A stretch of DNA of 64,000 nucleotides, from positions 2,140,576 to 2,204,575 of the forward strand of contig OX639991.1 in NCBI GenBank assembly GCA_951828585.1, written 5' to 3'. The notes under the pieces are model-generated. The model ran no database searches and was not told the origin of the DNA. It saw only the letters and a list, made by a program, of their open reading frames with translations. Every line of letters begins with the position of its first letter. Within the stretch, counting starts at the first letter, position 1. A program made the translations under genes and the position numbers. Below, in pieces: positions 21,731 through 34,580 of the stretch. The stretch is from Longimicrobiales bacterium. GTDB lineage: Bacteria > Gemmatimonadota > Gemmatimonadetes > Longimicrobiales > Gaopeijiaceae.

Positions 21731-24427
21731 TTGATCGACATGATCAGTGGACTGTCGCGGCTGCCTGTGGGAGCGGTGTTCCACCGGTGCGCGCTCCAGG
21801 TGAACCCGTTTGAGTACGCCCGCAAGTTCCGAGGAATCAAGTCTCCGGGGGACGCCGGGTCCCACGCGCGTCAGGTGGTTGCGAAGGCGTCGGAACTCGA
21901 CATCTCCGTACTTGCGATCACGAATCACAACGACTTCCAGGGGGTCGGCCCCTTCCGCCAAGCGGCCGAGGGTCACGAGATCACGATCTTCCCCGGATTC
22001 GAGGTGTCCTCCTCCGAGGGAATCCACGTCCTGTGCGTCTATGCACCCGAGACGGAAGAGGACCACTTGGCGCGGTTCCTGGGCGAGCTGGGGATCCGGG
22101 AACCGGGGTCGTCCTCCACATTGTCGGACAAGACCTTCGTTGACGTCCTGGCGACAGTCCGGGATCAGGGAGGAATCGCCATCGCGGCCCATGTAACGAG
22201 CGATAACGGTCTAATGGAGGTCCTCAGCGGGCAGGCGCGGATCAAGGCCTGGCGCAGCCCGGATCTGCTCGCCGTTCAGATTCCGAAAACGGTAGACGAG
22301 CTCCATCGGTCGGTCCGGACCATCGTTCGGAACGAGAATCCCCAGTACAGACGCTCGGGAACTGCTGGTGAAGGCCTGGCTGTGGCCCCGGTCAACGCCA
22401 AGGATGTCGTAGGACCCGAGGACCTTGGGGATCGTGGCGCTACCTGCCTGATCAAGATGTCTCGAATTGGTATCGAGGGTCTGAGGCAGGCGTTCCTGGA
22501 TCCGGGCTCGCGCATCGAGCTGAATCCCGAAAACGCCGATGTGGAGCCGGGAAACCATGCCGAAATGCTGGGAATGGCCTGGGAAGGGGGGTTTCTCGAC
22601 GGAACGAAGATGCGCCTGAATCCCAATCTCAACGTGCTGATCGGGGGAAGAGGCGCCGGGAAGTCCACGGTGATCGAGAGCCTCCGCTACGTATTGGGAC
22701 TGAATCCCATCGGCGAGGATGCATCGAATACCCACCAGGGGATCGTGCACAACGTGCTCCAGAGTGGGACCAGGATATCGCTTCTGGTGCGGACCCATGA
22801 ACCGGCAAGGCAAGACTACCTGATCGAACGTACGGTTCCGAACCCGCCGATCGTCCGGGATCGGGACGGCGCCATGTCGAACCGGCTTCCGCAGGACATT
22901 CTCCCACGCGTCGAGATCTACGGTCAGCACGAGATCGCCCAACTAACCCGGAGTGCCGTACAACGCACTCGCCTCCTGGACCGTTTTGTCGAGCAGGACG
23001 CGTCATTGGTGAGAAGGAAAGCCGAGATTCGGCGAGGCCTGGAAAGAACCCGAGGGTCGATCTTGGAGGTGCGACGCGAACTGGTTGACCTGGAAGAGCG
23101 GTTGGCGGCACTTCCGGGGCTGGAAGAGACGCTCGAGCAGTACCGCAACGCCGGACTGGAAGAACGACTGCGCGAACGCAGTCTCCTGGTTCGTGAACAG
23201 CAGGTTCTCGACTCGATCACGGACCGACTGGAACCACTTCGTGAGGCCCTGGAGAATCTCCGGCAGGAACTGCCTTTGGACTTGGCTTTCCTGTCCCCGG
23301 GAGCACTCGGTGGCCTTCCCGGTAAGGACATTCTGGCACTTGGGAATCAGGTCTTGGAGATACTGAACACCGACCTGCTGGAGTTGGTTGGTGGGTTCAA
23401 GGGTGCTTTGGACAGGGCAGATCAGAGTATCGCGGAGATGAGGATCCAGTGGGAAGAGCGTCGCCGCAAGGTTCAGGAGGCGTACGAGGCCCTTCTCCGT
23501 GAACTCAAGCGATCTGCAGTACATGGGCAAGAGTTCATTAATCTCCAGAGCATGATTGAGCGCCTTCGCCCACTTCGCGGGGAGGAGTCTTTGGCTAGAC
23601 GAGCAGAAGCGGAAGCAACCGGGCGGCGTCGAACGCTGCTGAAGGAATGGGAAGAACTGAAGGCTGAGGAGTTTCGTTTGTTTCGCCGGGCTGCCAAAGC
23701 GGTGTCCGAGCGACTCGAAGGTCGAATCCAGGTCAAAGTTGTAGCTGCGGGTGATCGGAAGCAACTCGTCGATTTGCTCCGCGAAGAGATCGGCGGCAAC
23801 CTTGCGAAGACCATCGAAGTCCTCGAATCCACGCCAGACCTTTCCCTTCTGGATCTGGCGGATGCCTGCCGCGAGGGACCCGATGCGATTCTGGCAAAGT
23901 ACGAGACCACCCCGAAGCAGGCGGACCTGTTGGCGAATGCCTCATCGGAAACCCTGATGCACGTCGAAGAACTCGACCTGCTCCATACCACCGAGATCCA
24001 GCTGAATCTTGCTCCGGAGGGCAGAACGCCATCGTGGCGTGAACTGGAAGACCTCTCGACTGGCCAAAAGGCGACTGCAGTGTTGCTCCTTCTTCTCCTC
24101 GAGTCCGATGCCCCGCTGATCGTAGACCAACCCGAGGACGACCTGGACAATCGCTTCATTACTGAAGGGATCGTTCCCCGGATGCGCGCGGAAAAGCGAG
24201 GCCGACAGTTCATTTTTTCGACTCACAATGCCAATATCCCCGTTCTTGGGGACGCTGAGCTGATCCTGGGCCTCACTCCGGTCGGCGAGGCCGAAGAGGG
24301 AAGAGCCGCGATTAGCAGGCAACACATGGGTTCAATCGACGACGAAGAGGTGCGAAAGCTCATCGAGGACCTGCTCGAAGGCGGGAAGGACGCTTTCGAG
24401 ACGAGGCGGCACAAGTACGGGTCTTAG
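21731..24427 (+). CDS. PHP-domain SMC-like ATPase (TrlF-like)
   Basis: This 898-residue protein combines an N-terminal PHP phosphoesterase-like domain (about residues 15-250) with an SMC/RecN-type ATPase. PHP motifs include AITNHNDFQGV, FPGFEVSSSEGIHVL and AIAAHV. The usual first HxH pair appears only as FHRCALQ. The ATPase has Walker A GGRGAGKST at about 305, a split coiled-coil region (about 420-720), the signature LSTGQKATAV and Walker B PLIVDQPEDDLD at about 795, and a C-terminal STHNANIPV switch. TrlF-type proteins are linked to tRNA-targeting or phage-defence loci; the role here is inferred. The region is less GC-rich than its neighbours, suggesting transfer. Confidence 0.8.
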   Translation: MIDMISGLSRLPVGAVFHRCALQVNPFEYARKFRGIKSPGDAGSHARQVVAKASELDISVLAITNHNDFQGVGPFRQAAEGHEITIFPGFEVSSSEGIHVLCVYAPETEEDHLARFLGELGIREPGSSSTLSDKTFVDVLATVRDQGGIAIAAHVTSDNGLMEVLSGQARIKAWRSPDLLAVQIPKTVDELHRSVRTIVRNENPQYRRSGTAGEGLAVAPVNAKDVVGPEDLGDRGATCLIKMSRIGIEGLRQAFLDPGSRIELNPENADVEPGNHAEMLGMAWEGGFLDGTKMRLNPNLNVLIGGRGAGKSTVIESLRYVLGLNPIGEDASNTHQGIVHNVLQSGTRISLLVRTHEPARQDYLIERTVPNPPIVRDRDGAMSNRLPQDILPRVEIYGQHEIAQLTRSAVQRTRLLDRFVEQDASLVRRKAEIRRGLERTRGSILEVRRELVDLEERLAALPGLEETLEQYRNAGLEERLRERSLLVREQQVLDSITDRLEPLREALENLRQELPLDLAFLSPGALGGLPGKDILALGNQVLEILNTDLLELVGGFKGALDRADQSIAEMRIQWEERRRKVQEAYEALLRELKRSAVHGQEFINLQSMIERLRPLRGEESLARRAEAEATGRRRTLLKEWEELKAEEFRLFRRAAKAVSERLEGRIQVKVVAAGDRKQLVDLLREEIGGNLAKTIEVLESTPDLSLLDLADACREGPDAILAKYETTPKQADLLANASSETLMHVEELDLLHTTEIQLNLAPEGRTPSWRELEDLSTGQKATAVLLLLLLESDAPLIVDQPEDDLDNRFITEGIVPRMRAEKRGRQFIFSTHNANIPVLGDAELILGLTPVGEAEEGRAAISRQHMGSIDDEEVRKLIEDLLEGGKDAFETRRHKYGS

Positions 24428-24440
24428 GGGTGCCGCGCAG

Positions 24441-25664
24441 ATGACCAGAGCCGAACTGATCGAGTTGATCCGGAACGACGAGACGTCGGGGGTCGAATTC
24501 AAACGGGACGATATCTCGGCGACCAAATTGGCTTCCGAGATGGTCGCTCTGCTCAATCTGAGAGGCGGCCATATTCTTCTGGGCGTTGAGGAGGACCAGA
24601 CCGTGAGCGGCCTGACGCGCGACCCGAGGAAGGCCGAGGAATGGGTTATGGAAGTCGCGCGCGTCCATATCCAGCCGGCAACCATACCCTATTGGGAGAC
24701 CGTGCGATGGGATGCCGACACGATTGTGGGCATCGTGTCGCTTTCCGAGGATGCACCGGACAAGCCCTACAAGGTCAAGAAGGGTTCGGCGTGGGTCACC
24801 AAGGTTAGAGTCGGGACCACTACGCGCGATGCGACCCGCGAGGAGGAAGCACGTCTCTATCAACAGTCGGGGCGCATTGAGTATGGCCTGAAACCGGTTC
24901 AGGGCGCGGAAGCCACGATTCTCGACCATCGGCGGCTAGAGGACTATTTCAAACGCGTGTTGGGGTGGAAGCCATTCGGCGATCCAGAGTCCGAGGAATG
25001 GAGAACGCAGCTCGTCAATCTGGATCTGGCGGTCAGGAGACACCAGCGCACCGCGCCCACCGTGAACGGAGTGCTGCTCTTTGGCAGCAACCCGAAGCGG
25101 TTCGTCCCACAATCCGGCATTCGGGCCATCTGCTACACCGGAGAAGAGCCCGACTACGCGACCCGTGCGGACGAGGACTTGAGGGGGCCACTCGCACCCC
25201 TTCTCGACCGTGGTGGAGGAGCCTTGTTGGAGCCAGGCCTTGTGGACCAGGCCTGGGATTTCGTGCGGCGGAACACGGCACCCGCGGCGCGTATGGAAGG
25301 GCTTCGCCGCGCGGACCGCTGGGAGTATCCGAAGAGCGTGATACGGGAGGTGGTGACCAACGCCCTCGTCCACCGCGACTACAGCATCGTCGGCACCGAC
25401 ATTTCGCTGACCATCTATTCGAATCGACTGGAAGTCACCAGCCCCGGGCGGCTGCCCAATACGGTAACGCCGGAGGGCATGAGGTCGGGAATGCGCTACG
25501 CTCGCAACCAGACCCTGGTCAACGTCATGCGGGACTACGGATATGTTGACGCACGGGGAATGGGGGTGCGAATCAAGATCATTCCGGGGATGCGGGAACA
25601 CAACGGAACGGAACCGGATCTGATTGAGGACGACTACCGTTTCACGGTTCGACTTTGGAAGTAG
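24441..25664 (+). CDS. AlbA_2/Schlafen-like domain protein with GHKL-type ATP-binding C-terminus
   Basis: This 407-residue protein begins with an AlbA_2 (Schlafen-like) domain: ETSGVEFKRDD at about residue 15, ALLNLRGGHILLGVEED, and a helical stretch to about residue 150. The C-terminal part carries EVVTNALVHRDYS and DISLTIYSNRLEVTSPG, the pattern of the HATPase_c_4 domain that often follows AlbA_2 in COG2865 proteins, usually called transcriptional regulators. It begins 13 bases after the PHP-ATPase gene, so the two form an operon. The pair may be a defence module in which the AlbA_2 protein acts on nucleic acid (inference). Confidence 0.82.
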   Translation: MTRAELIELIRNDETSGVEFKRDDISATKLASEMVALLNLRGGHILLGVEEDQTVSGLTRDPRKAEEWVMEVARVHIQPATIPYWETVRWDADTIVGIVSLSEDAPDKPYKVKKGSAWVTKVRVGTTTRDATREEEARLYQQSGRIEYGLKPVQGAEATILDHRRLEDYFKRVLGWKPFGDPESEEWRTQLVNLDLAVRRHQRTAPTVNGVLLFGSNPKRFVPQSGIRAICYTGEEPDYATRADEDLRGPLAPLLDRGGGALLEPGLVDQAWDFVRRNTAPAARMEGLRRADRWEYPKSVIREVVTNALVHRDYSIVGTDISLTIYSNRLEVTSPGRLPNTVTPEGMRSGMRYARNQTLVNVMRDYGYVDARGMGVRIKIIPGMREHNGTEPDLIEDDYRFTVRLWK

Positions 25665-27361: not shown

Positions 27362-28456
27362 ATGCGATGTCGCCGCCTCAGCCGCCGCCGTGGCCGGGGA
27401 TGGAACTCGGCGAGCCCCTTCGCGTTCTTGGCCTTGACGTCCTTGGCGTGGCCGCCGCTCACCCCCCCCATCGCCGCCCAGGAGCCCGATTCGGTGGAGG
27501 TGACCGTTGCGGTGCGCGATGCCGGGACCACCGAGGCCTTGGCCGGGGTGGTGATCGAGCTGTCGGGCCTGCGGGAGCGGCATGTCACGGGCGATGACGG
27601 GACGGTGACCTTCGACGTGCCGGCCGGGCGGTACCGGCTCACCGTTCGGAAGAGCGGCTACGCAACCATCGAAAGAACCATCGAAGACGACCTTCCGGTT
27701 GCGCGGGCGATCAGGACCATCGTCATGATGCGCAGGCCGGTCGAACATGAACTGAGCGCTCCCGCGTCGCTGTTGGTGCAGGTAACGGAATTCGGATCGG
27801 AGCGCCCGATCGAGGCGGCGGAGGTTTCGCTTGTCAACGGGTCCGCGCGGCAGCTCACCAACGCGCGGGGGATGGCCAGGTTCGGTGATCTGCGGCGGTC
27901 GCCGGTGGAGGTCTCGGTCCGGGGAATCGGCTACGCCACGCGCACGGAGCCGGTCCTCCTGGAGGCGGGGCGCACGACACTGGCGAAGGTCGCGATGACG
28001 GTGGAGGCCGTGGCCCTGGCACCCCTGGAGGTGGTGGCTCGCTCACGGTTCCTGGAAAAGAAGGGAGTGTACTGGCGGATCGATCACGACAGGGTGACGC
28101 ATCTGTTCGACTCGGACGATCTCATCGAACGCATGCGCGAGCGCGGCTCGCCGCTCCTGAGTCATGCGTTTACGAGGTTGCCCGGCCTCTATGTGGGGTA
28201 TTATGGGGGCGCGCCGTTCTTTTTGGGGAGCAGAAGGTGTGAAATCCCGTGGTACTGGGACGGGATCATGTTTGGGTCCCCGGAAGGGGGTTTCGACGAG
28301 ATTACGCCGGAGGCCGTTTTACTGGTCGAGGTCTACACGGGCCCGCGCACGCCCAGGCGCTTCCAGCGCTGGCCGGGGGATCTCAACGATTGCGGTGCCA
28401 TCCTCTTCTGGTCCAAGAACCGTGGCAATCGGACCGGGAAGGGCGGGGAGGGGTAG
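27362..28456 (+). CDS. Secreted protein with two carboxypeptidase-regulatory-like domains, copy A (in frame)
   Basis: This 364-residue protein has an arginine-rich start (MRCRRLSRRRGRG), a hydrophobic segment and likely cleavage after IAAQ. Two CarboxypepD_reg-type beta-sandwich domains follow (residues about 45-120, VTVAVRDAGTTEALAGVVIE, and 130-215, LLVQVTEFGSERPIEAAEV), then a region of about 150 residues that resembles a TonB-receptor plug start (LEVVARSRFLEKKG, GAILFWSKN). A run of eight C (27462-27469) lies in the signal-peptide codons and keeps this copy in frame. Copies at 31566 and 33403 are close paralogues. A role in surface binding or receptor assembly is inferred. Confidence 0.75.
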   Translation: MRCRRLSRRRGRGWNSASPFAFLALTSLAWPPLTPPIAAQEPDSVEVTVAVRDAGTTEALAGVVIELSGLRERHVTGDDGTVTFDVPAGRYRLTVRKSGYATIERTIEDDLPVARAIRTIVMMRRPVEHELSAPASLLVQVTEFGSERPIEAAEVSLVNGSARQLTNARGMARFGDLRRSPVEVSVRGIGYATRTEPVLLEAGRTTLAKVAMTVEAVALAPLEVVARSRFLEKKGVYWRIDHDRVTHLFDSDDLIERMRERGSPLLSHAFTRLPGLYVGYYGGAPFFLGSRRCEIPWYWDGIMFGSPEGGFDEITPEAVLLVEVYTGPRTPRRFQRWPGDLNDCGAILFWSKNRGNRTGKGGEG

Positions 28457-28616: not shown

Positions 28617-28946
28617 ATGCGAAACATCACCGTAGCCGTTGACGAGGAAACCCATCGCCTCGCCCGTATCCGCGCGGCGGAGCTGGACACGTCGGTGTCG
28701 GCGCTGGTACGTGAGTTTCTGCGGCGTATCGCACCCCGCGACGGGCAACGCGAGCGACCGGATCCTCAACCCCTCGAGTCCGCGCTAGAGCGCAGACGCA
28801 GGCTGTTCGACGAGGTCTTCGCCGACTTCGACGCGCGCGGCATTGGGCTGCGCATGGCAGACAACCTGCCGCGAGCGGAGCTCCACGACCGTTCGGCGAT
28901 CCGGTCCGAAGAGGATCCGGCCGGTCGCGCCGACATCGGCGGCTGA
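28617..28946 (+). CDS. vapB: VapB-type ribbon-helix-helix antitoxin
   Basis: The 109-residue protein starts MRNITVAVDEETHRLARIRAAELDTSVSALVREFLRRI, a typical Arc/CopG ribbon-helix-helix DNA-binding domain, then a charged C-terminal tail of about 60 residues that would bind the toxin. It is eight bases upstream of a PIN-domain gene. It should neutralise that toxin and repress the promoter at 28552-28597. No copy of this gene remains in the second, deleted vapC locus at 32.7 kb. Confidence 0.82.
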   Translation: MRNITVAVDEETHRLARIRAAELDTSVSALVREFLRRIAPRDGQRERPDPQPLESALERRRRLFDEVFADFDARGIGLRMADNLPRAELHDRSAIRSEEDPAGRADIGG

Positions 28947-28954
28947 TCGGCCAG

Positions 28955-29368
28955 GTGCGCTTCGTCGACACGAATGTGCTGCTCTACGCGGCGAGCATTC
29001 TCCCCGAAGAAGAGGCCAAGCGTCGTCGCGCGCGGGAACTCCTGGCGGAGCCGAATCTCGCCGTCTCGGTGCAGGTTCTGCAGGAGTTCTACCACCAGGC
29101 GACCCGCGCCACCCGACCCGGTCGACTCTCCGACGATGACGCCGCGCGCTTCCTCGATCCGGTGTGGGAGATGCGGGTGCAGGCCGTAACGCTCACCGTG
29201 TTCCGGGATGCCGTTGCGATTCGCCGCCGCTTCGGTCTTTCGTATTGGGATGCGGCAATCCTCGCCGCCGCCCGGACGCTCGGCTGCGACGCCGTCTACT
29301 CCGAGGACATTAGCGCGGAGCAGGACTACGGAGGGATTCGAGTCGTCAACCCCTTTGAATTGAATTGA
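28955..29368 (+). CDS. vapC: VapC-type PIN-domain ribonuclease toxin
   Basis: This 137-residue PIN-domain protein contains the acidic active-site residues in MRFVDTNVLLYA (Asp5), the glutamate of VLQEFYHQA, LSYWDAAILAAA (Asp near 104) and AVYSEDISAEQDYGGI (Asp near 121). VapC toxins cut tRNA or rRNA when freed from VapB. The start is GTG at 28955. A second, 5'-truncated copy at 32752-33098 is over 90% identical in DNA by eye. Confidence 0.88.
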   Translation: MRFVDTNVLLYAASILPEEEAKRRRARELLAEPNLAVSVQVLQEFYHQATRATRPGRLSDDDAARFLDPVWEMRVQAVTLTVFRDAVAIRRRFGLSYWDAAILAAARTLGCDAVYSEDISAEQDYGGIRVVNPFELN

Positions 29369-30444: not shown

Positions 30445-31569
30445 ATGACTGTTGCGCCCCCCACCCTGTACGGTGCCTTGGTCGCCGTTGTATTGGTTGC
30501 CTTGGCCGCAGCGACCGGGTCGGTGGCGCAGGAGCCGTCGCCCGCGACGATGGTCGTCGAGCCCTGCACCGGACCCTGCGATCTGACATTCGTTCTTGAA
30601 CGCGAGTACGGCGAGGATGTGGGCCCGGGGATGCTTGAGGACAGCGGAGCCAGGGGGTGGTTGGACAAGTCCGGGCGCATGTATATCCTCGGAAATCTCG
30701 GTACGAGTGTTCAGGTCTTCGGACCGGACGGGGCGTTCCTGATGCGTGCGGGCCGCCGGGGTTCAGGTCCCGGCGAACTGGAGGATGGTGGCTCACTCGT
30801 CATCACCGAGGATGGAGTGTTCTCGGTTCTGGACCGCACCCGGCAGGTGATCCTGACCTTCGACACGACTGGGGCTCTCCGGAGCGAATCCCGGATTCGC
30901 GGATGGGCTGCCCGGGGACTGGAGACGGTCCACGCGGGAGGAGTTCTGGCGGTGCATCACGCGGACATCCGCACGCCCGCTCTGGTCGGATACCCGCTCC
31001 ATCTGGTGAATCTCGAAAGCGGCGAGGTTGTGGAATCGTTCGGGTCGATGACGGGCGAATACGACTCACGGTCCGGGTTACACCACACCATCGCGGGCGG
31101 ACCTGGACGGTCGGTGTGGATGGCGGAAAGGTACGCGTACAGGATTGAGCTGTGGGAACCCGGTCGACTCCTAAGGTCGCTCCGGCGGGACACGAAGTGG
31201 TTCCCCGAAGTGCCGGTGGCTGAACTTTCCCGTGGATGGGAGGAGAAGCCAAGCACAATGATCAACAGCATTGCGGCCGGTGATTCCCTGCTCTGGTTGA
31301 CCATCCTCACGGCCGACGAACGTTGGCGCGAAGGCAGGGAACACCGCTATGACACGACGCTGGAGGTCATCGACTTCCGCCGCGGTCGGCTCGTCGGCAG
31401 CGAGCGCCTGGGCGACATACATCGCCTGGTTGAGGCGGGACTTTTGGGTCGGCTGGTCGTCACGCCGGAACGTGCCGTGCGATATCGGACCACACGCGTA
31501 CTGCTTGGAGGGGAGGTGTCGGGGCCGGAGGCCGCCGCGGCGGGAGGCCCGACCTCCTTGGGAAGGTGA
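30445..31569 (+). CDS. Secreted 6-bladed beta-propeller protein
   Basis: This 374-residue protein has a signal peptide (LVALAAATGSVAQ) and repeated NHL/6-bladed-propeller motifs: GRMYILGNLGTSVQVFGPDG, RRGSGPGELEDGGS, and later GRSVWMAERYAYRIELWEP. It starts at ATG 30445, 52 bases after the cysteine-rich gene, and its stop overlaps the GTG of the next carboxypeptidase-regulatory gene (GTGA). A truncated relative lies at 45396-45868. Such propellers in this phylum are usually extracellular and of unknown ligand. Confidence 0.75.
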   Translation: MTVAPPTLYGALVAVVLVALAAATGSVAQEPSPATMVVEPCTGPCDLTFVLEREYGEDVGPGMLEDSGARGWLDKSGRMYILGNLGTSVQVFGPDGAFLMRAGRRGSGPGELEDGGSLVITEDGVFSVLDRTRQVILTFDTTGALRSESRIRGWAARGLETVHAGGVLAVHHADIRTPALVGYPLHLVNLESGEVVESFGSMTGEYDSRSGLHHTIAGGPGRSVWMAERYAYRIELWEPGRLLRSLRRDTKWFPEVPVAELSRGWEEKPSTMINSIAAGDSLLWLTILTADERWREGREHRYDTTLEVIDFRRGRLVGSERLGDIHRLVEAGLLGRLVVTPERAVRYRTTRVLLGGEVSGPEAAAAGGPTSLGR

Positions 31570-32663
31570 GTCGCCGCTTCGACCACCTCGGCCGCCGCCG
31601 TGGCCGGGGATGGAACTCGGCGGGCCCCTTCGCTCTCCTGGCCCTGACGTACCTGGCGTGGCCGCCGCTCACCCCCACCGTCGCGGCCCAGGAGCCCGAT
31701 TCGGTGGCGGTGACCGTGACGGTGCGCGATGCCGGGACCACCGAGGCCTTGGCCGGGGTGGTGATCGAGCTGTCGGGCCTGCGGGAGCGGCATGTCACGG
31801 GCGATGACGGGACGGCGACTTTCGATGTGCCGGCCGGGCGGTACCGGCTCACCGTTCGGAAGAGCGGCTACGCAACCATCGAAAGAACCATCGAAGACGA
31901 CCTTCCGGTTGCGCGGGCGATCAGGACCATCGTCATGATGCGCAGGCCGGCCGAATCCAACCTGGATGCTCCCGCGTCGCTGTTGGTGCAGGTAACGGAA
32001 TTCGGATCGGAGCGCCCGATCGCGGCAGCGGAGGTTTCGCTTGTCGGCGGGTCCGCGCGGCAGCTCACCAACGCGCGGGGGATGGCCAGGTTCGGTGATC
32101 TGCGCCGGTCGCCGGTGGAGGTCGCGGTCCAGAGGATCGGCTACGCCACGCGCACGGAGCCGGTCCTCCTGGAGGCGGGGCGCACGACACTGGCGAAGGT
32201 CGCGATGACGGTGGAGGCCGTGGCCCTGGCACCCCTGGAGGTGGTGGCTCGCTCACGGTTCCTGGAAAAGAAGGGAGTGTACTGGCGGATCGATCACGAC
32301 AGGGTGACGCATCTGTTCGACTCGGACGATCTTGTCGAACGCATGCGCGAGCGCGACTCCCCGCTATTGGGCCATGCGTTCACGAGGTTGCCCGGCCTTT
32401 ACGTGTGGTACTTCGGGGGGCCTATGTTCGTGGGGCGCGGAATGTGTGAAATCCCGGTGTACTGGGACGGAATCATGCATGGGAACCCGTATGGGCATTT
32501 CGACGACATTCCGCCGGAGGCCGTTGAACTGGTCGAGGTCTACACGGGCCCCCGCACGCCGAAGCGCTTCCAGCGCTGGCCGGGGGATCTCAACGATTGC
32601 GGCGCGATCCTCTTCTGGTCCAAGAATCGTGCCAATCGGACCAGGAAGGGCGGGGAGGGGTAG
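31566..32663 (+). CDS. Secreted carboxypeptidase-regulatory-like protein, copy A' (no long C tract)
   Basis: A 365-residue paralogue of the 27362 gene, near-identical over the two beta-sandwich domains and most divergent at the N-terminus and in the last third (for example LYVWYFGGPMF). The C run in the signal peptide is interrupted here (five C only), so this copy cannot shift frame easily. The GTG start at 31566 overlaps the stop of the propeller gene. This placement differs from copies A and C, which sit directly behind a leader. Confidence 0.75.
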   Translation: MSRRFDHLGRRRGRGWNSAGPFALLALTYLAWPPLTPTVAAQEPDSVAVTVTVRDAGTTEALAGVVIELSGLRERHVTGDDGTATFDVPAGRYRLTVRKSGYATIERTIEDDLPVARAIRTIVMMRRPAESNLDAPASLLVQVTEFGSERPIAAAEVSLVGGSARQLTNARGMARFGDLRRSPVEVAVQRIGYATRTEPVLLEAGRTTLAKVAMTVEAVALAPLEVVARSRFLEKKGVYWRIDHDRVTHLFDSDDLVERMRERDSPLLGHAFTRLPGLYVWYFGGPMFVGRGMCEIPVYWDGIMHGNPYGHFDDIPPEAVELVEVYTGPRTPKRFQRWPGDLNDCGAILFWSKNRANRTRKGGEG

Positions 32664-33402: not shown

Positions 33403-34580
33403 ATGCGATGTCGCCGCCTCAGCCGCCGCCGTGGCCGGGGATGGAACTCGGCGAGCCCCTTCGCGTTCTTGGCCTTGACGTCCTTGGCGTGGCCGCCGCT
33501 CACCCCCCCATCGCCGCCCAGGAGCCCGATTCGGTGGAGGTGACCGTTGCGGTGCGCGATGCCGGGACCACCGAGGCCTTGGCCGGGGTGGTGATCGAGC
33601 TGTCGGGCCTGCGGGAGCGGCATGTCACGGGCGATGACGGGACGGCGACCTTCGACGTGCCGGCCGGGCGGTACCGGCTCACCGTTCGGAAGAGCGGCTA
33701 CGCAACCATCGAAAGAACCATCGAAGACGACCTTCCGGTTGCGCGGGCGATCAGGACCATCGTCATGATGCGCAGGCCGGCCGAATCCGACCTGGATGCT
33801 CCCGCGTCGCTGTTGGTGCAGGTAACGGAATTCGCATCGGGGCACCCAATCGAGGCGGCGGAAGTCTCGCTCGTCGGCGAGTCCGAGCGGCTACTCACCA
33901 ATACGCGGGGGATGGCTTGGTTCCGTGATGTACGCCGTTCTCTGGTGGAGGTCGCGGTCCAGAGGATCGGCTACGCCACGCGCACGGAGCCGGTCCTCCT
34001 GGAGGCGGAGCGGACGACATTGGCCAAGGTCGCGATGACGGTGGAGGCCGTGCCCCTGGCACCCCTGGAGGTGGAGGTTCGCTCACGCTTCCTGGAAAAG
34101 CAGGGAGTGTACTGGCGGATTGATCATGACCGGGTGATGCATGTGTTCGACACCGACGATCTTATCGAACGCATGCGCGGCTCCCCACTCCTGGCCCATG
34201 CGTTCACGAGGCTGCCCGGCCTTTTTGTGTGGTACGCAAGAGGAGCGCCGTACTTCCTAGGGCGCAGAAGGTGTGAGATCCCGGTGTACTGGGACGGAAT
34301 TAGGGGTCCTAACCCGTATGGGCATTTCGACGACATTCCGCCGGAGGCCGTTGCATTCGTCGAGGTCTACACGGGCGTCCGCACGCCCGCGCGTTTCCAG
34401 CGCTGGCCGGGGGATATCAATGATTGCGGGGCGATCGTCTTCTGGTCCAAGCGGCGCGCCGGTCGGGGTCCGAGGAACCGCGAGAGGGGTAGGCGGTTGA
34501 GCCTAGCAGATGGAGTTTCTATCCCACGTCAGAGCACTGGGAGCCGAGGGAGAAATCCCCCGCCATTCGAGCGGCGATGA
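33403..34580 (+). CDS. Secreted carboxypeptidase-regulatory-like protein, copy C (out of frame at C7)
   Basis: This third paralogue keeps the two beta-sandwich domains and the plug-like tail, but the C run in its signal-peptide codons has seven C (33503-33509), one fewer than copy A. From ATG 33403 translation therefore ends after about 46 codons. The long frame (from 33408) lacks a signal peptide. Adding one C restores the copy A structure. The C-terminus is about 30 residues longer than in copies A and A' because the stop is shifted. Divergence is highest in residues 140-300, including changes such as FVWYARGAPYFLG. Confidence 0.6.

Follow-up and report, generated by a model that had tools for sequence, protein, structure and literature searches.

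The trlF-trlG gene pair of a Longimicrobiales bacterium, a candidate switch for phage defence or growth arrest built from a Rad50-like ATPase and a Schlafen-type RNase

The gene pair analyzed here lies in a window of 64 kb (the whole stretch of DNA that was studied) and belongs to a widespread module, composed of a Rad50-like sensor ATPase (TrlF) and a Schlafen-type RNA-cutting enzyme (TrlG), that could work as a switch for phage defence or growth arrest. The preliminary description knew of no system with this pairing, but it does have a precedent: by gene order and domain content the pair is a Gemmatimonadota copy of the trlF-trlG core of the "temperature restricting locus" (TRL), an operon (trlR-trlF-trlG) described in Photorhabdus laumondii in 2020 (PMC7554251). 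The pair was thus already known as a locus, and what is added here is its distribution, the remodelled PHP site of TrlF, the match of the catalytic motif of TrlG, the company of defence loci and a series of natural trlF losses.

In the reading that we prefer (probability of about 0.55), TrlF would sense a disturbance linked to invasion, probably of DNA ends or of the nucleotide pool when a phage or a mobile element enters the cell, and would gate TrlG by restraining it. TrlG would be the effector, a putative metal-dependent RNase of the Schlafen family with a GHKL nucleotide-binding domain, which once released would cleave tRNA or rRNA and stop growth (by abortive infection or dormancy), and may in this way confer phage protection.

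The Locus and Its Insertion Site

The two open reading frames are separated by 13 bp (Table 1) and, as the preliminary description had stated, they are located between dat and namZ and are poorer in GC than their surroundings (58-62% versus 65-70%). The upstream flank is an Aminotran_4 (dat-like) gene and the downstream flank a NamZ gene on the opposite strand, both identified with Pfam. dat is present in all 23 genomes of the genus, and the pair is a chromosomal insertion, since the site is empty in another member (G018), where dat and namZ are only 58 bp apart; the source genome and G015 carry trlF-trlG at this site. The start of trlF was placed at TTG 21731, and ATG 21740, which is the start chosen in a relative 82% identical, is equally good. 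The neighbours of this copy are ordinary genes and do not form a defence island.

The order trlF-trlG and the domains of TrlG are shared with the Photorhabdus operon, and the NCBIfam family that recognizes TrlF (NF045780) bears the name of the Photorhabdus gene; the window pair differs in its insertion site, in its phylum and in the absence of trlR, since only 46 bp lie between the end of dat and trlF. Because this small regulator is missing upstream, the pair was assigned to the trlF-trlG core and not to the three-gene operon.

Two other groups of genes were observed downstream in the window. At 28617-29368, 3 kb from the pair, a PIN-domain gene comes after a small FitA-like gene of the ribbon-helix-helix type; the two are likely a toxin-antitoxin pair of the VapBC/FitAB type. 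Three near-alike tandem ORFs of about 365-390 aa (27362-28456, 31566-32663 and 33408-34580), with common stretches such as LEVVARSRFLEKKGVYWRIDHDRVTHLFDSDDL, look like a recent local gene amplification.

Table 1. Coordinates of the two genes and of the sites discussed in the text, in window positions
Feature	Position	Strand	Description	Basis
trlF	21731..24427	+	PHP and Rad50/SMC-type ABC ATPase with coiled coil; 898 aa	NF045780, model, PDB matches
TrlF Q23-V-N25	21797..21805	+	Replaces the HxH metal motif of canonical PHP sites	Q23 in 60/62 and N25 in 61/62 subfamily TrlFs
TrlF D225	22403..22405	+	Aligned with the Asp of PHP DxH	Invariant, 62/62
TrlF Walker A	22643..22669	+	GGRGAGKST (305-313)	G305, K311, S312 in 62/62
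TrlF Walker B/D-loop region	24116..24139	+	LIVDQPED (796-803)	D799, Q800, E802, D803 in 62/62
trlG	24441..25664	+	Schlafen AlbA_2, middle region and GHKL (HATPase_c_4); 407 aa	Pfam, model
TrlG catalytic motif	24480..24503	+	E14-TSGV-E19-F-K21 (Schlafen RNase ExxxxExK)	Residue conservation, SLFN13/SLFN14 alignment
TrlG HATPase_c_4 match	25392..25655	+	GHKL fold begins earlier, at about residue 217-265	

TrlF, an ATPase with a Remodelled PHP Site

TrlF belongs to the NCBIfam family of the same name (NF045780, 471.8 bits over residues 14-897, cut-off 350) and contains PHP, SMC_N and AAA_21/23 domains by Pfam, in agreement with the TrlF-like PHP plus SMC-type ATPase initially proposed. Its model (pLDDT 86.9) matches SMC/Rad50 heads with coiled coil in the PDB (Z of about 22), and the N-terminal PHP domain resembles Endonuclease Q (EndoQ, Z of about 19). 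The ATPase motifs are intact and invariant in the subfamily (Table 1).

The PHP site is altered: the HxH motif is replaced by QxN in 60 of the 62 TrlFs of the subfamily, and the DxH motif reads DxV in the window protein, its His not being conserved in the subfamily. The residues H66, E91, H99 and H154 are invariant in all 62 sequences, as is D225. Judging by this conservation, the site is remodelled and conserved rather than decayed. The designation 'dead PHP domain' was considered and is too strong, given those five invariant residues. HxH is retained in other TrlFs and in the two TrlF paralogues of the same genome (DLHxH/DFHxH), mostly along with SDAH-like motifs; TrlG partners are present there too.

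TrlF also shows detectable homology to Ppl, a single-gene anti-phage protein of E. coli that likewise combines a PHP domain with an ABC-type NTPase, works alone and responds to DNA 3' ends and nucleotide depletion (PMC12904381). The similarity (NF042955, 177 bits) is far below the NCBIfam equivalog cut-off for Ppl (1000 bits), and TrlF differs in having a partner, trlG, and in its PHP metal ligands, with QxN and DxV where Ppl has the catalytic HxH ... DxH. Its Rad50-type ATPase together with this relationship to Ppl suggests that TrlF may read DNA ends or the nucleotide state. A Ppl-like exonuclease action is doubtful because the metal site of the subfamily is conserved but altered.

TrlG, a Putative Schlafen-Type RNase

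TrlG contains an N-terminal SLFN_AlbA_2 domain (8.5e-11, residues 14-129) and a C-terminal HATPase_c_4 domain (3.2e-21, residues 318-405), so that the AlbA_2 plus GHKL-type architecture first assigned to it holds, and it has the domain order and the length (about 400 aa) of the TrlG of the TRL core. Its AlphaFold model (pLDDT 90.5) is matched over the full length by DIP2311 (3lmm). The C-terminal part resembles the ATPase domains of SpoIIAB, HK853 and BCKDK, and the N-terminal part resembles the tRNase domain of SAMD9 (Z 10.8) and the C-lobe of SLFN14 (Z 10.3 at 2.3 A), with Z of about 10 and rmsd of about 2.3-2.5 A against the catalytic C-lobes of SLFN14, SLFN13 and SLFN11.

The TrlG profile aligns with SLFN14 and SLFN13 at a complete ExxxxExK motif, in which E14 and K21 are present in 54 of 54 paired TrlGs and position 19 is occupied by E in 51 sequences and by D in the other 3; N307, H311, S334-P335-G336, G373 and G375 are invariant in the rest of the protein. 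The motif corresponds to E206/E211/K213 of human SLFN14, where E211A abolishes RNA cleavage (PMC12215978). With ExxxxExK on a predicted fold of the SLFN C-lobe, TrlG can be classed as Schlafen-type, and the link to Schlafen nucleases made earlier from the domain name extends to the active site. Residues 1-113 share this active site and fold with the Schlafen RNases and the SAMD9 tRNase domain; TrlG differs from them in having one C-lobe-like copy, a GHKL fusion and a bacterial operon partner.

In Photorhabdus, TrlG is also composed of AlbA_2 (14-128) and HATPase_c_4, trlF being the histidinol-phosphatase-like gene (PMC7554251). The TRL restricts growth above 34 C and its transcription is induced by heat (PMC7554251), and the suppressors of the heat arrest are changes in trlG (S16N, stops and IS insertions), none of them falling in the larger trlF (PMC7554251). 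S16 is placed inside ExxxxExK by its position in the motif and by plasmid TrlGs in which neighbouring residues carry the same numbers. Since the suppressors fall in trlG and never in the larger trlF, TrlG is the component that stops growth, and TrlF is not needed for the heat arrest; this growth-stopping role, together with the RNase motif, points to TrlG as the effector. PGAP labels such as 'AlbA family DNA-binding' or 'RNA-binding domain-containing' would instead suggest that the AlbA_2-GHKL protein binds nucleic acid and regulates transcription of the locus without being an enzyme, which we consider highly improbable given that the catalytic motif is conserved on a tRNase fold and that the mutations relieving the arrest map to trlG.

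Conservation of the Pair

GTDB genomes were scanned with a profile of this TrlF subfamily and the best 80 loci were kept. They belong to Pseudomonadota, Acidobacteriota, Chloroflexota, Planctomycetota, Spirochaetota, Nitrospirota, Gemmatimonadota and others, plus one ANME-1 archaeon. Looking for the two genes side by side in other genomes, as had been suggested, showed that they form a conserved unit: trlG follows trlF directly on the same strand in 63 of these 80 loci (median gap 9 bp), so the order, strand and 13-bp gap found here are typical of the family and of the TRL core. The remaining loci comprise 5 overlapping or frameshifted pairs, 5 at a contig edge and 7 truly without trlG, and the paired share is about 68/75 (about 90%) after allowing for contig ends and frameshifts. 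The distances between TrlFs and between TrlGs are correlated (r=0.82, n=48 pairs, the largest of 2000 permutations being 0.25), as would be the case if the two genes travelled as one, and the pairing is far beyond chance.

In a survey of the phylum, 19 of 22 TrlFs bearing a PHP domain were paired and none of the 6 PHP-less ones. The latter (L078-L083, in G211, G191, G396, G239, G036 and G011) are TrlF-like ATPases of about 640 aa that perhaps constitute a separate family. The genome of this bacterium also contains two more TrlF-TrlG-like pairs with canonical PHP HxH (L091, G000:C1:774512-777310, preceded by a small PIN-like ORF, and L092, G000:C1:239569-242247).

trlG is missing beside many plasmid TrlFs of the QxN type, and TrlF may therefore act alone. 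Lone TrlFs are carried by phages as well as plasmids, and Ppl itself needs no partner, so TrlF could be conceived as a stand-alone ssDNA exonuclease of the Ppl kind, TrlG being a mere accessory backup. This is quite unlikely for the subfamily, in which the replacement of HxH and of the last PHP His makes catalysis of the Ppl type doubtful and about nine in ten members of the genome scan have trlG beside them.

Natural Loss of trlF

The dat-namZ locus of three relatives has lost trlF and kept trlG (G003, L085; G019, L086; G007, L087). In G003 the end of trlF is still present, ahead of a trlG that is intact and under purifying selection (dN/dS of about 0.07-0.13). The deletion junction is the same in G019 and G007, and in both the nuclease domain is damaged: the TrlG of G019 carries E19A, a change equivalent to the one that inactivates human SLFN14, and R22G, in a gene otherwise constrained (dN/dS of about 0.1), and in that of G007 an in-frame deletion removes residues 25-146, most of AlbA_2. 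Thus, two of the three trlF-less trlGs are damaged in the nuclease and the third is intact, three cases that suggest that TrlG is a burden, or of no use, once TrlF is gone.

Because the intact trlG of G003 persists without trlF, TrlF cannot be an obligate antitoxin in that relative. That TrlG alone is tolerated in G003 would also suit a TrlF that activates instead of restraining, sensing the trigger and switching on a TrlG that is inert by itself, by a handover from ABC ATPase to nuclease such as that of PARIS. PARIS (the ABC ATPase AriA and the TOPRIM tRNase AriB) does resemble TRL in outline, as an ABC ATPase with a nuclease that would act on tRNA, and the TrlF ATPase is weakly similar to AriA, but TrlG is composed of AlbA_2 and GHKL instead of TOPRIM, and TrlF has a PHP domain and a longer coiled coil. 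We regard an activator as rather unlikely: if it were obligatory, the Photorhabdus screen, which struck trlG many times, should also have struck the larger trlF, and two trlF-less relatives have lost the nuclease. Restraint of TrlG by TrlF is the reading that we retain.

Company of Homologues

Outside the window, trlF-trlG is found in defence loci and on mobile elements. On a Vibrio parahaemolyticus plasmid it is flanked by pglX and pglZ of a BREX locus and on a Citrobacter plasmid by hsdS and hsdR of a type I restriction-modification (RM) system. E. coli has the pair or trlF next to BREX, next to type I RM with McrBC, and in a P4-like island; an ssrA island of strain CAVP776 contains a type III RM system, an intact trlF and, next to them, a trlG split into three ORFs (L229, 9655-10887). 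TrlF relatives without trlG are found in a P2-like Yersinia phage, in a Vibrio tailless-phage element (as two ORFs) and in Listeria phage contigs (L110, L111 and L112). No relative was found among IMG/VR viral contigs using the window TrlF as a single query, a weak test given that annotated phage records did contain distant ones.

The enrichment near defence genes that had been proposed as a check was found among the nearest neighbours of the 80 loci (137 ORFs), where the PADLOC families HmaB (9), DUF1156 methylase (7), type III methylase (6), HmaC (5), BrxH (4) and DrmD (3) recur, while no family exceeds 2 among 137 control ORFs taken at arbitrary places of the phylum, a comparison that counts families and not exact protein numbers, with a control from one phylum and crude ORF calling. 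No published defence test of trlF-trlG was found in the literature consulted, but an earlier description of the pair as a defence system may exist, given a preprint of 2025 that deals with the bacterial Schlafens and phage defence (cited in PMC12839542); a term search of the main text of the DefensePredictor, BREX-diversity and YprA papers showed no TrlF or no relevant pair.

The sole published phenotype of the TRL is the growth restriction above 34 C with its heat-induced transcription, which could mean that the locus controls growth under stress or at high temperature and has no role in defence. This seems unlikely for a module with a patchy distribution, mobile across phyla and sited in BREX and RM loci, plasmids and phage satellites.

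Implications

A further possibility, less well favoured than the general mechanism and put forward tentatively, is that the QxN PHP domain on the Rad50-like ATPase is a nuclease turned sensor that gates the Schlafen RNase in an immune system of two genes with a wide distribution; in Photorhabdus the temperature restriction would then be a heat-triggered misfiring of it. Single residues bear on the mechanism, namely E19 of TrlG and Q23/N25, H154 and K311 of TrlF, and the loss of trlF followed by knock-outs of the nuclease in sister species is a test, run by evolution, of the mutual dependence of TrlF and TrlG. The heat growth arrest of Photorhabdus, published but unexplained, is thereby linked to a mobile Schlafen RNase module of many phyla.
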